A stretch of 64,000 nucleotides of DNA. It comes from Micromonospora coxensis (GTDB lineage: Bacteria > Actinomycetota > Actinomycetes > Mycobacteriales > Micromonosporaceae). The translations under genes and the position numbers were made by a program. Shown here one piece after another: positions 56,077-58,770 of the stretch; position 1 is the stretch's first letter, and every line of letters begins with the position of its first letter. Location: contig NZ_LT607753.1 in the NCBI RefSeq assembly GCF_900090295.1, forward strand, positions 1,798,001-1,862,000, in the 5' to 3' direction. Under the pieces are notes generated by a model, which was not told the DNA's origin, did no database searches, and saw only the letters and a program-made list of their open reading frames with translations.

Positions 56077-57363
56077 TCACGGGGTGAGGCGGTGCAGGTC
56101 ACGCGGGAAGGCCGTCACCTCCCGCACGTTCGCCGCGCCGACCACCCGGGCGACGAAGCGTTCCAGGCCGATCGCGAAGCCGCCGTGCGGGGGCATGCCG
56201 TGCCGGAACGCGTCGACGTAGCCGGCGTACGGCTCGACCGGCTCGCCGCGCGCCGCGAGGGCCGCGAGGTAGTCGTCGTACCGGTGCAGTCGTTGCCCGC
56301 CGGTGACCAGCTCCACGCCCCGGAAGAGCAGGTCGAAGCCGTTGGAGTACGCCGGCCGGGCCGGGTCCGGGTGGGTGTAGAAGGGCCGCTTCGCCATCGG
56401 GTACCCGGTGACGAAGAGGAACTCCGAGCCGTGCTCGGCCCGGGCCCACTCCCCCAGCGCCCGCTCGTGCGCGGGGGCGAGGTCCGGTTCGTCGGCCGGG
56501 GCGCCGGCGATCGTCAGCGCCTCGGTGAAGTGCACGGCGGGGATCTCCGCCGGCACCTCCGGCAGGTCGAGGCCGAGCGCCGAGACGGCGCCCCCGGCCC
56601 GGTCGGCGACCGTCCCCAGCATCACGGCCAGCGTGTCGCGCAGCACGGCCATCACGTCCCGGTGGTCGGCGACGAAGCCCAGCTCGGCGTCGAGGGAGGT
56701 GTACTGGGCCAGGTGCCGGACGGTGTCGTGCGGCTCGGCCCGGAACACCGGACCCACCTCGTACACCCGCTCGAAGACACCCACCATGAGCTGCTTGTAG
56801 AACTGCGGCGACTGCGCCAGGTACGCGGGCCGGCCGAACCAGTCCAGCGCGAAGACGTTCGCCCCGCTCTCGGTGGACGACGCGACCACCTTCGGGGTGT
56901 GGATCTCGGTGAAGTCGCGGGCGTCGAGCGCGGCGCGGAACCCGGCCACCGCCGCCGCCGAGACGCGCAGCGCCGCCGAACGGGTCGGGTGGCGCAGAGC
57001 CACGGGCGCGTGGTCGAGCTGGGTGGGCAGGGTCGCGGCGAGCGCCGGCCGGTACAGGTCGAACGGCGGCGGCACGGCGGGCGGGCCGAGCGGCCGTACC
57101 GTCGGGCCGGTCAGCTCGACCCCGGCGGGCGCCGTGGCGTTCGCGACGACCGTGCCGACGACCTCGACGACGGTCTCCTCGGTGAGCGCCTCGACCTGCC
57201 CGCGCACGGCGGCGTCGGTGACCACCACCTGGGTCAGGCCGGCGGCGTCCCGCACGATCAGGAAGGCCACCGACTTGAGCAGCCGGCGGCGGTGGATCCA
57301 GCCGGCGATCGTCACGGTCTCGCCGACGTGGGCGGGGAGCTGGGAGGACAGGATGCGTTGCAC
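56077..57363 (-). CDS. aspS: Aspartyl-tRNA synthetase, archaeal/eukaryal-like type
   Basis: A 428-residue class IIb aminoacyl-tRNA synthetase that charges tRNA with Asp. An OB-fold anticodon domain ([19 protein letters not shown]) is followed by the class II core: motif 2 region [28 protein letters not shown], and motif 3 [15 protein letters not shown]. It lacks the large GAD insertion of ordinary bacterial AspRS, so it is the compact archaeal-like form, often non-discriminating (tRNA-Asp and tRNA-Asn) in bacteria; which applies here is not shown. GGAGGTAACC precedes the GTG start. A T-box leader with an Asp specifier controls it. Confidence 0.93.
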
Positions 57364-57642
57364 GGCGGTTACCTCCTCGATCAATCGCAACGCGATCCCC
57401 GGGAGGTGTGGGCGAGCGGGAACCTCGCGGTGCCACCACACCTTCGCCCCCGCCTGGGCGGGGGCCTCGTTCGTCGCCTGGTCACCGGGGCCAGCCGGGC
57501 GGGCTCTACTGGGCGCGCGGGGCGCGCCGTTCTTCCCGCGGCTCGGGAGGGTCTTCACGCTCCGGCGCCAGACCGCCTTCCAGCAACCGGCGGCTCTCTG
57601 CGCTGGCGGATCGGCGCGCTACTCGGCTCCGTCACAGCTTTG
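57364..57642 (-). promoter_or_regulatory. T-box riboswitch (Asp specifier) in the aspS leader
   Basis: Read on the minus strand, Stem I shows an AGTA element (GGAGCCGAGTAGCG), an AGAGAG bulge (57597-57592 region), a GGTTGCTGG apical segment and the specifier loop TGAAGACC with the codon GAC (57553-57551, Asp). The T-box TGGCACCGCG (57435-57426) has C at the variable position, matching the G73 discriminator of tRNA-Asp. AGGTGTGG (57443-57436) can pair with CCACACCT (57411-57404). The overlapping ACCTCC (57407-57402) can instead pair with the aspS ribosome site GGAGGT (57376-57371). This predicts translational control: uncharged tRNA-Asp frees the ribosome site. Confidence 0.85.
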
Positions 57643-57780
57643 CGGGGGAGGTTAGCACCGGATCCCGCGCACTGTGACGACAATTTTCCCGGCCTCGGTG
57701 TCCGGTGTCACAGAATCTGCGGCGTGACGCCGGTCGCCCGCCGTTCATCGACCGCCACCGACCGGCGTAGGCTCGTTTTC
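57643..57780. promoter_or_regulatory. Divergent aspS/lipA promoter region
   Basis: Minus strand: TAACCT (57654-57649), with TCACAG 17 bp upstream, gives a transcript starting near 57642 that contains the whole T-box. Plus strand: TAGGCT (57768-57773) lies 7 nt before the lipA GTG. Together with the T-box this accounts for the 417-bp gap 57364-57780; no gene is present. Confidence 0.6.
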
Positions 57781-58770
57781 GTGACGATCGAGCACTCCGC
57801 GCCGACGACTCAGCAGCCAGCGCCCTCCGCGACGGTCGCCCCCGAGGGGCGGCGGATGCTGCGGATCGAGGCCCGCAACGCCGAGACGCCGATCGAGCGC
57901 AAGCCGCCGTGGATCAAGGTCAAGGCCAAGATGGGCCCGGAGTACACCCAGTTGCGCGGGCTCGTCTCGCGCGAAGGGCTGCACACGGTCTGTCAGGAGG
58001 CCGGCTGCCCCAACATCTACGAGTGCTGGGAGGACCGCGAGGCGACCTTCCTCATCGGCGGTGACCAGTGCACCCGGCGCTGCGACTTCTGCCAGATCGA
58101 CACCGGCAAGCCGGCCGAGTTCGACGCCGACGAGCCGCGCCGGGTCGCCGAGTCCGTCGCCGCGATGGGGCTGCGCTACGCCACCATCACCGGTGTCGCC
58201 CGTGACGACCTGCCCGACGGCGGCGCGTGGCTGTACGCCGAGACCGTCCGGCAGATCCACGCCCTGCGCTCCGGCTGCGGCGTCGAGCTGCTGATCCCCG
58301 ACTTCAACGCGGTCCCCGAGCAGCTCGCCGAGGTCTTCGGGTCGCGTCCCGAGGTGCTGGCGCACAACGTCGAGACGGTGCCGCGCATCTTCAAGCGGAT
58401 CCGGCCAGCCTTCCGCTACGACCGCTCGCTGGACGTGATCCGCCAGGCCCGCGCCGACGGCCTGGTCACCAAGAGCAACCTGATCCTCGGCATGGGCGAG
58501 GAGCGCGCCGAGGTCTCCCAGGCGCTGCGCGACCTGCACGACGCCGGCTGCGAGCTGATCACCATCACCCAGTACCTGCGCCCCTCCCCCCGGCACCACC
58601 CGGTCACCCGCTGGGTCAAGCCGGAGGAGTTCGTCGAGCTGCGCGAGGAGGCCGAGGAGATCGGCTTCGCCGGCGTGATGAGCGGGCCGCTGGTGCGCTC
58701 GTCGTACCGCGCCGGGCGGCTCTACCAGCAGGCCCTGGCGGCCCGCGAGGGCGTTCCCGCCGCCGGCTGA
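57781..58770 (+). CDS. lipA: Lipoyl synthase
   Basis: LipA (329 aa) inserts two sulfurs into octanoyl groups on lipoyl domains, using radical SAM chemistry. The auxiliary cluster ligands are in [12 protein letters not shown] (about 71, 76, 82), and the radical SAM cluster is CTRRCDFC (about 97-104). The C-terminal SSYRAG serine, which binds the auxiliary cluster, is present. The TAGGCT box 7 nt before the GTG indicates leaderless initiation. With lipB, sucB, lpd and gcvT it completes the lipoate-linked set of the window; the A-type carrier at 11363 could help its clusters (inference). Confidence 0.97.

Follow-up and report, generated by a model that had tools for sequence, protein, structure and literature searches.

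A probable translational T-box for tRNA-Asp in the leader of an accessory archaeal-type aspS gene of Micromonospora coxensis

The aspS2 gene and its leader

The window analyzed here, a stretch of 64 kb from the 6.77 Mb single-contig genome of Micromonospora coxensis, carries on its minus strand aspS2, a gene for an archaeal-type aspartyl-tRNA synthetase (AspRS), and upstream of it a leader bounded by Stem I (57638) and the GTG start codon at 57363-57361, the position of the start being a correction to earlier annotation. The gene and the elements of its leader are as follows:

56077-57363, minus strand: aspS2, archaeal-type AspRS, starting with GTG at 57363-57361 and carrying His in a GWIH motif
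57649-57657, minus strand: extended -10 promoter element TGCTAACCT (TGnTAnnnT), with a transcription start inferred at about 57643-57641
57541-57638, minus strand: long Stem I, whose base is K-turn-like, with AGUA, a CAGAGAG bulge and the apical loop GGUUGCUGGAA (RF00230 match and covariation)
57551-57553, minus strand: specifier GAC, the complement of the GUC anticodon of tRNA-Asp (conservation; tRNA-Asp with GUC in the genome)
57498-57539, minus strand: Stem II with S-turn-like GAAGAA and AGUAGA motifs (sequence; bounds by eye)
57446-57465, minus strand: Stem III, a hairpin 5' of the antisequestrator (sequence and fold; bounds by eye)
57405-57442, minus strand: antisequestrator, consisting of A1 (GGUGUGG:CCACACC), the 7-nt bulge UGGCACC and A2 (GCGAG:CUCGC) (covariation)

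With regard to the gene product, the archaeal-like character that an earlier note had proposed is borne out by its assignment to NCBIfam PRK05159 (E 3e-159) and by its best PDB match, Thermus AspRS2 1n9w (E 7e-116), which is named both non-discriminating and archaeal-type. AspRS2 carries His at the position of Trp in 1b8a, and this His is kept in 95 of the 97 readable AspRS2 proteins of the family (13 of 110 were unreadable by the pattern used). Replacement of the discriminating Trp by His marks non-discriminating AspRS, and AspRS2 is, by family match and by this residue, a putative non-discriminating archaeal-type AspRS. Its nearest named relatives stem mostly from Micromonospora (80-95% identity). 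Since the source genome also encodes an ordinary bacterial AspRS, AspRS2 constitutes an accessory copy; neither this second AspRS nor the additional pairings and the spread described below had appeared in the earlier note. A search for AsnRS-like sequences in the same genome gave no match at 1e-5, and listed no LysRS either. lipA (lipoyl synthase) is located at 57781-58770 on the plus strand, divergent from aspS2, and a divergent lipA is found within 600 nt upstream in 74 of 110 family leaders.

The T-box family model RF00230 matches the leader in two pieces, namely Stem I at 57541-57638 (45.1 bits, E 1.1e-8) and the antisequestrator at 57408-57471 (21.8 bits, E 0.011). Together with covariation, these pieces confirm on the minus strand the T-box leader that had been predicted for 57364-57642, while the covariance search succeeded in part, as both pieces score under the gathering score of 93. 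With Rfam at gathering and all families, no match was obtained anywhere in the window. Because the RF00230 gathering score was reached by none of 16 other loci tested, the ileS-type locus L223 among them, the cut-off appears to miss this group of T-boxes. The single-sequence minimum free energy of the 311-nt leader gave no sign of excess stability (z -0.42). It is the comparative evidence that is decisive for predicting a T-box leader.

In Stem I, 19 of 23 pairs are changed on both sides among 14 diverse sequences; 89.4% of cells in these sequences are paired as against 34-51% when slid, and none of 500 shuffles was equally high on any of five measures. Its specifier loop (AGUA/GAA) presents GAC, a codon of the amino acid of the regulated gene, and relatives show GAC wherever the specifier could be placed, so that the Asp specificity deduced earlier stands and its constancy is sustained. 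The base 3' of the specifier is C in the window and not the purine conserved at this position in characterized T-boxes according to the available part of PMC7583486; Actinoplanes-type leaders read GAAGACA, i.e., with a purine after the specifier. Judged by their sequence, elbow-binding loops (AGAGAG-type and apical-loop motifs), which are not universal among T-boxes, are present in long leaders. With a long Stem I containing elbow motifs and with Stem II, the leader does not show the truncated Stem I of class II.

In the antisequestrator, the bulge UGGCACC occupies 57435-57429 and adjoins A1, thus constituting a 7-nt UGGN bulge next to A1 that is complementary to the acceptor end of tRNA. Among 33 sequences, 97.2% of cells are paired compared with 35-60% when slid. 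Five of the 12 pairs are changed on both sides, a number equalled by 19 of 500 shuffles, and the covariation score was equalled by none of 500. Covariation in relatives, on which the earlier note had made its reading depend, is present for Stem I and for the antisequestrator. A pattern search for tRNA-Asp gave no match in the genome; by means of the tRNA family and ARAGORN a sole tRNA-Asp was found, with GUC anticodon, G73 and encoded CCA (of 56 tRNA matches, eight of 81-87 nt were unread). The tRNA-Asn of the same genome has G73 and U1-A72. Of 109 family leaders, 90 have UGGC and 19 have UGGU, the latter allowing only a wobble with G73 if the tRNA-Asp of these organisms is alike. Of the two independent recognition points for tRNA-Asp that had been claimed, GAC stands, whereas UGGC has to be rejected as independent proof because tRNA-Asn likewise has G73 and UGGU occurs in 19 of 109 leaders.

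The transcription start probably precedes Stem I, because an extended -10 element lies at fixed spacing just upstream of it in 102 of 145 long-Stem-I leaders, compared with 0, 0, 0, 1, 0 and 0 occurrences in six upstream control windows; this speaks against a start downstream of Stem I, an objection that the earlier note had raised itself. A consensus scan indicated another promoter-like site on the minus strand further upstream, at 57711-57683.

Pairings around the Shine-Dalgarno sequence and the start codon

Downstream of Stem III, pairings termed H1, PK and H2 can be drawn from the following strands:

57402-57407, minus strand: H1 5' strand, anti-SD ACCUCC, sharing bases with the A1 3' strand (complementarity)
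57371-57376, minus strand: H1 3' strand, Shine-Dalgarno (SD) sequence GGAGGU (complementarity)
57417-57422, minus strand: PK 5' strand, A2 loop UUCCCG (flank covariation)
57396-57401, minus strand: PK 3' strand, linker CGGGGA (flank covariation)
57387-57393, minus strand: H2 5' strand, linker GCGUUGC (pairing covaries between lineages)
57355-57361, minus strand: H2 3' strand, GCAACGC, spanning the third base of the GUG start and codons 2 and 3 (covarying pairing)

H1 is seen as complementarity: the A1 3' strand carries ACCUCC, the complement of the SD sequence GGAGGU, and a terminator is lacking, an arrangement that, as far as it can be read from the letters, corresponds to a translational T-box. 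Of 198 parsed leaders, 177 contain the cores of both anti-SD and SD, as counted with a loose pattern and no control; the 198 were parsed out of 213, some of them with a wrong start (e.g., L005 and L009).

PK would join the A2 loop to the linker. CCC and GGG are found in 91 of 95 distinct loop/linker combinations. For the base 3' of CCC, in fixed register, 59 of 68 pair as compared with a shuffled mean of 43.6, and none of 5000 shuffles was as high; on the 5' side of CCC, where the best register was taken, 62 combinations out of 91 pair, U.G accounting for 38 of these, and the other 29 are unpaired. Significance in single leaders is weak (p<0.05 in 31 of the 95 distinct combinations), and the claim rests on flank covariation, where related sequences are non-independent. 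Variants of the pairing are UUCCCAAA:UUUGGGGA (L030), CCCUU:AAGGG (L118) and UUCCCAU:AUGGGGA (L104, with a search stretch set by hand). The latter leader has a hairpin of about 60 nt inserted between antisequestrator and linker, the loop:linker complement being kept and the anti-SD lost. Since PK crosses the A1 3' strand, it would compete with A1. Formation of PK in the ON state was judged unlikely, as about 3 nt would need to span 12 bp, which is an argument and not a computation.

The H2 linker followed, in order, by the complementary start occurs in 75 of 109 family leaders and in 50 of 78 named leaders. In a swap matrix of nine leaders from three sequence classes, linkers pair best with starts of their own class and scores are lower off-block. 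H2 is accompanied by a shuffle p of at most 0.056 in 14 of 32 hand-picked representatives. The other 18 are without supported H2; 12 of them have an H1 of 7-10 bp, and H1 comprises only 4-6 bp in the remaining six (L014, L111, L116, L120, L121, and L124).

Conservation of H2 could alternatively reflect its codons and not regulation, a reading which we consider unlikely without dismissing it. The N-terminus MQRILS is conserved, most family leaders show no variation on either side of H2, those 18 of the 32 representatives are without it, and either side also occurs by itself, i.e., the start without a linker partner in 11 family leaders and the linker without the start in five of 55 named leaders, all of which would agree with such an explanation. 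On the other hand, differing linkers match correspondingly differing starts (CGCGCCA:UGGCGCG in L027 and GGGAUCAU:AUGAUCY in other families), and a complementary start is present in 75 of the 76 family leaders having the GCGUUGC linker, as would be expected if H2 pairs.

Forced folds of the competing states are nearly equal (-38.9 vs. -38.1 kcal/mol), the method being one that cannot hold pseudoknots. When the antisequestrator is forced, H2 still folds, so that the start codon would be masked in what is presumed to be the ON state, and the fold with forced H1 nests in the window a local hairpin that uses an H2 strand. We make no claim that H1 and H2 together are an established H-type pseudoknot. 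The PK and H2 pairings suggest a pseudoknotted lock on the SD sequence and the start codon, and they appear to be the most novel part of the leader.

Distribution and architecture among relatives

AspRS2 is encoded in 114 of 150 sampled family genomes (E 1e-60), and 110 of the 114 leaders were analyzed, three lacking the N-terminus of the gene and one (G097, L230) having been left out. The T-box core GGTGGNACCRCG precedes AspRS2 in 109 of the 110; in the exception, L044, aspS2 is present without a T-box. In 79 of the 109 leaders GAAGACNC occurs no more than 300 nt 5' of the core; 27 of the 30 leaders without it have a hairpin with UGAC in its loop and a stem of 4 bp or more (no chance control), while L079, L090 and L098 lack such a hairpin and by eye contain UGAC strings in the same stretch. 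Among 80 named loci, which overlap the family sample, the core was found in 78 and GAAGACNC in 75. A bacterial AspRS is present in 148 of the 150 family genomes, the two without it being assemblies of 77-80% completeness.

Counted by its motifs, Stem II is represented by both motifs in 28, by one in 15 and by none in 36 of the 79 long leaders, and by both in one, one in one and none in 28 of the 30 short leaders. On the basis of these motif counts, orthologous leaders mix long and short Stem I with or without a recognizable Stem II. At the class loci L121, L125, L127 and L129, Stem I resembles by eye one hairpin of 4 bp whose loop contains GAC. In four named Micromonospora leaders (L154, L175, L209, and L221) a short palindromic repeat is seen by eye instead of Stem I (GGAAGGGC...CC, TTAACGCC...TTAACAC); in L154 the antisequestrator is also gone, and the GCGTTGC linker and the complementary start are kept. 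These four leaders look like natural loss-of-sensor alleles.

In the class, archaeal-type AspRS was detected in 36 of 394 genomes (1e-40), three of which, the source genome of the window included, belong to the same genus. The remaining 33 divide into 19 that encode a bacterial AspRS as well and 14 that lack one. A T-box is present at 18 of the 19 distant aspS2 loci in genomes also having a bacterial AspRS, in three cases as GGTGGCACCGGG; the one locus lacking the T-box, L133, holds an incomplete gene, and model R1 has a match elsewhere on that contig. For lone archaeal-type AspRS, no T-box core was found at any of the eight loci read, out of 14 such genomes, and model R1 gave no match in these genomes; GAAGAC strings without a T-box core occur near three of the lone loci (L135, L138, and L139). 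One genome (G316, L126) combines a bacterial AspRS with a T-box-containing aspS2 in a family otherwise showing matches to lone archaeal-type AspRS, for which contamination is a possible cause.

Model R1 also detected a short-Stem-I GAC T-box before bacterial-type aspS at two loci, L291 (identified by translation) and L292 (identified by NCBIfam), in genomes G276 and G452. Neither genome gave a match to archaeal-type AspRS, and the T-box therefore extends beyond spare copies; these two sampled cases speak against a simple redundancy rule. A long-Stem-I T-box with the apparent specifier UCC precedes serS (TIGR00414) at L280 (genome G372), and ileS T-boxes occur in some Micromonosporaceae (L224, confirmed as ileS, and L223 and L225-L228, by eye). 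A second match of model R1 in the source genome (L229, E 0.0046) and its match in G294 (L296) both read as chance.

Proposed mechanism and comparison with known T-boxes

The elements that comparison of relatives supports, i.e., Stem I, the specifier, the antisequestrator, the PK and H2 pairings and the position of the promoter, very probably belong to a translational T-box that senses uncharged tRNA-Asp and derepresses the accessory archaeal-type AspRS. The mRNA would begin just upstream of Stem I, the specifier GAC would pair with the GUC anticodon and the tip of the long Stem I would dock on the tRNA elbow. UGGC would pair with the free GCCA end solely when tRNA-Asp is uncharged, and this pairing would hold A1, such that the anti-SD in the A1 3' strand could not mask the SD sequence and AspRS2 would be made. 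With charged tRNA-Asp, A1 would open, the anti-SD would pair with the SD sequence (H1), the A2 loop would reach over the A1 3' strand to pair with the linker (PK), and the linker could additionally pair with the start region (H2), provided that these pairings may coexist. We infer that AspRS2 would act as a backup under limitation of aspartate or of the housekeeping AspRS, a role which the data do not require in view of the T-boxes before bacterial aspS in two genomes and of L044, with its aspS2 devoid of a T-box.

More tentatively, and as a possibility to which we would not give even chances, the leader may be described as a three-way pseudoknotted T-box. In its OFF state, PK would form across the A1 3' strand, A1 and PK being mutually exclusive, the SD sequence would be masked by the anti-SD and the start codon by the linker, and production of the spare AspRS would be shut off as long as aspartate and AspRS activity suffice; within orthologous leaders the tRNA-reading part would shrink from a long Stem I with Stem II to one small GAC-loop hairpin without recognizable Stem II.

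Control of termination instead of ribosome access, as in a transcriptional T-box, would agree with the long Stem I, which is a general feature of transcriptional T-boxes in the accessible text of PMC7583486, and Rho-dependent termination of the leader is possible. Against this, the consensus scan revealed no terminator-like site in 57300-57750, TTTTT occurs between T-box and start in none and TTTT in one of the 198 parsed leaders, and the SD complement sits in the 3' strand of the antisequestrator. A transcriptional output is thus very unlikely, and the control by ribosome access put forward in the earlier note is upheld by the SD-blocking alternative pairing together with these terminator and T-tract results. 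The leader might also sense tRNA-Asn, alone or in addition to tRNA-Asp, within a tRNA-dependent Asn synthesis by a non-discriminating AspRS, and the His shared with the non-discriminating Thermus AspRS2, the G73 and U1-A72 of tRNA-Asn and the source genome without an AsnRS-like match point in this direction. A T-box with two codons occurs in Clostridium. The specifier, however, is GAC in the 79 long leaders of the family and wherever it was placed in leaders of the class; 19 leaders have a GAAAAY string within the preceding 300 nt, which in the window stands 5' of the promoter, and none was seen in place of GAAGAC, which leaves sensing of tRNA-Asn extremely improbable. That the leader is a decayed, vestigial T-box with constitutive expression of aspS2 is scarcely credible: Stem I is replaced (L154, L175, L209, and L221) or the T-box lost (L044) in certain relatives, but covariation and conserved tRNA-contact motifs are retained in the window and in most relatives.

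A translational T-box for tRNA-Asp before aspS2 would widen the actinobacterial T-boxes beyond ileS, with bacterial aspS and serS as additional targets in the sampled relatives. Orthologous leaders ranging from a long to a hairpin-only Stem I would make a minimal tRNA-reading T-box testable on one gene, and control of a spare AspRS by a sensor of tRNA-Asp suggests a response that limitation of aspartate or AspRS would induce in a family known for antibiotic producers. No report of an actinobacterial aspS T-box or of the PK and H2 pairings was found in the literature searched, as far as its text was available, and the accessible portions of PMC10651847 and PMC12510878 yielded nothing on aspS2-type leaders; TBDB, for which Actinobacteria were scanned with a class II model according to the excerpts of PMC7778990, may already list them.

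Translational ileS T-boxes are known in Actinobacteria (PMC1262725, in the part available), and with their class II form, as described in the accessible parts of PMC1262725 and PMC7583486, the aspS2 leader shares the T-box bulge, the antisequestrator, the anti-SD:SD pairing and the absence of a terminator. In contrast to the short or intermediate Stem I, AUC and UGGU of ileS T-boxes, it combines GAC and UGGC with a long Stem I that bears elbow motifs, and the likeness to ileS drawn in the earlier note misleads in this respect. The ileS T-boxes at six loci inspected by eye are without the pairing of A2 loop and linker, whereas the aspS2 leader has PK and H2 and, unlike the ileS T-box, serves an accessory enzyme. 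Sherwood is said to have described the actinobacterial ileS translational T-box of class II in 2015. According to PMC7583486, a long Stem I is found in a few translational T-boxes and an intermediate or ultrashort one in most, and the SD sequence is the element masked in them, the term "start codon" occurring 0 times in the text of that review. The canonical RF00230 T-box with long Stem I, mostly from Firmicutes and transcriptional, has AGUA, AGAGAG, the apical loop, an S-turn-like Stem II and a UGGN bulge adjoining A1 in common with the aspS2 leader, which differs by its output to the ribosome site, the C after the specifier and a score below gathering.

With regard to the regulated enzyme, a bacterial together with an archaeal-type AspRS is likewise found in the AspRS1/AspRS2 pair of Deinococcus-Thermus described in the available part of PMC4206432, where the gain of an additional AspRS in bacteria is called rare; as opposed to that pair, the source genome shows no AsnRS-like match. 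Two control genomes, Thermus composti and Deinobacterium chartae, both gave RF00230 matches. T-boxes on one copy of duplicated synthetases are documented in the accessible text of PMC2494555, among them a T-box on one of three aspS genes of Clostridium acetobutylicum, which resembles the present case in its duplicated aspS but concerns a Firmicute.
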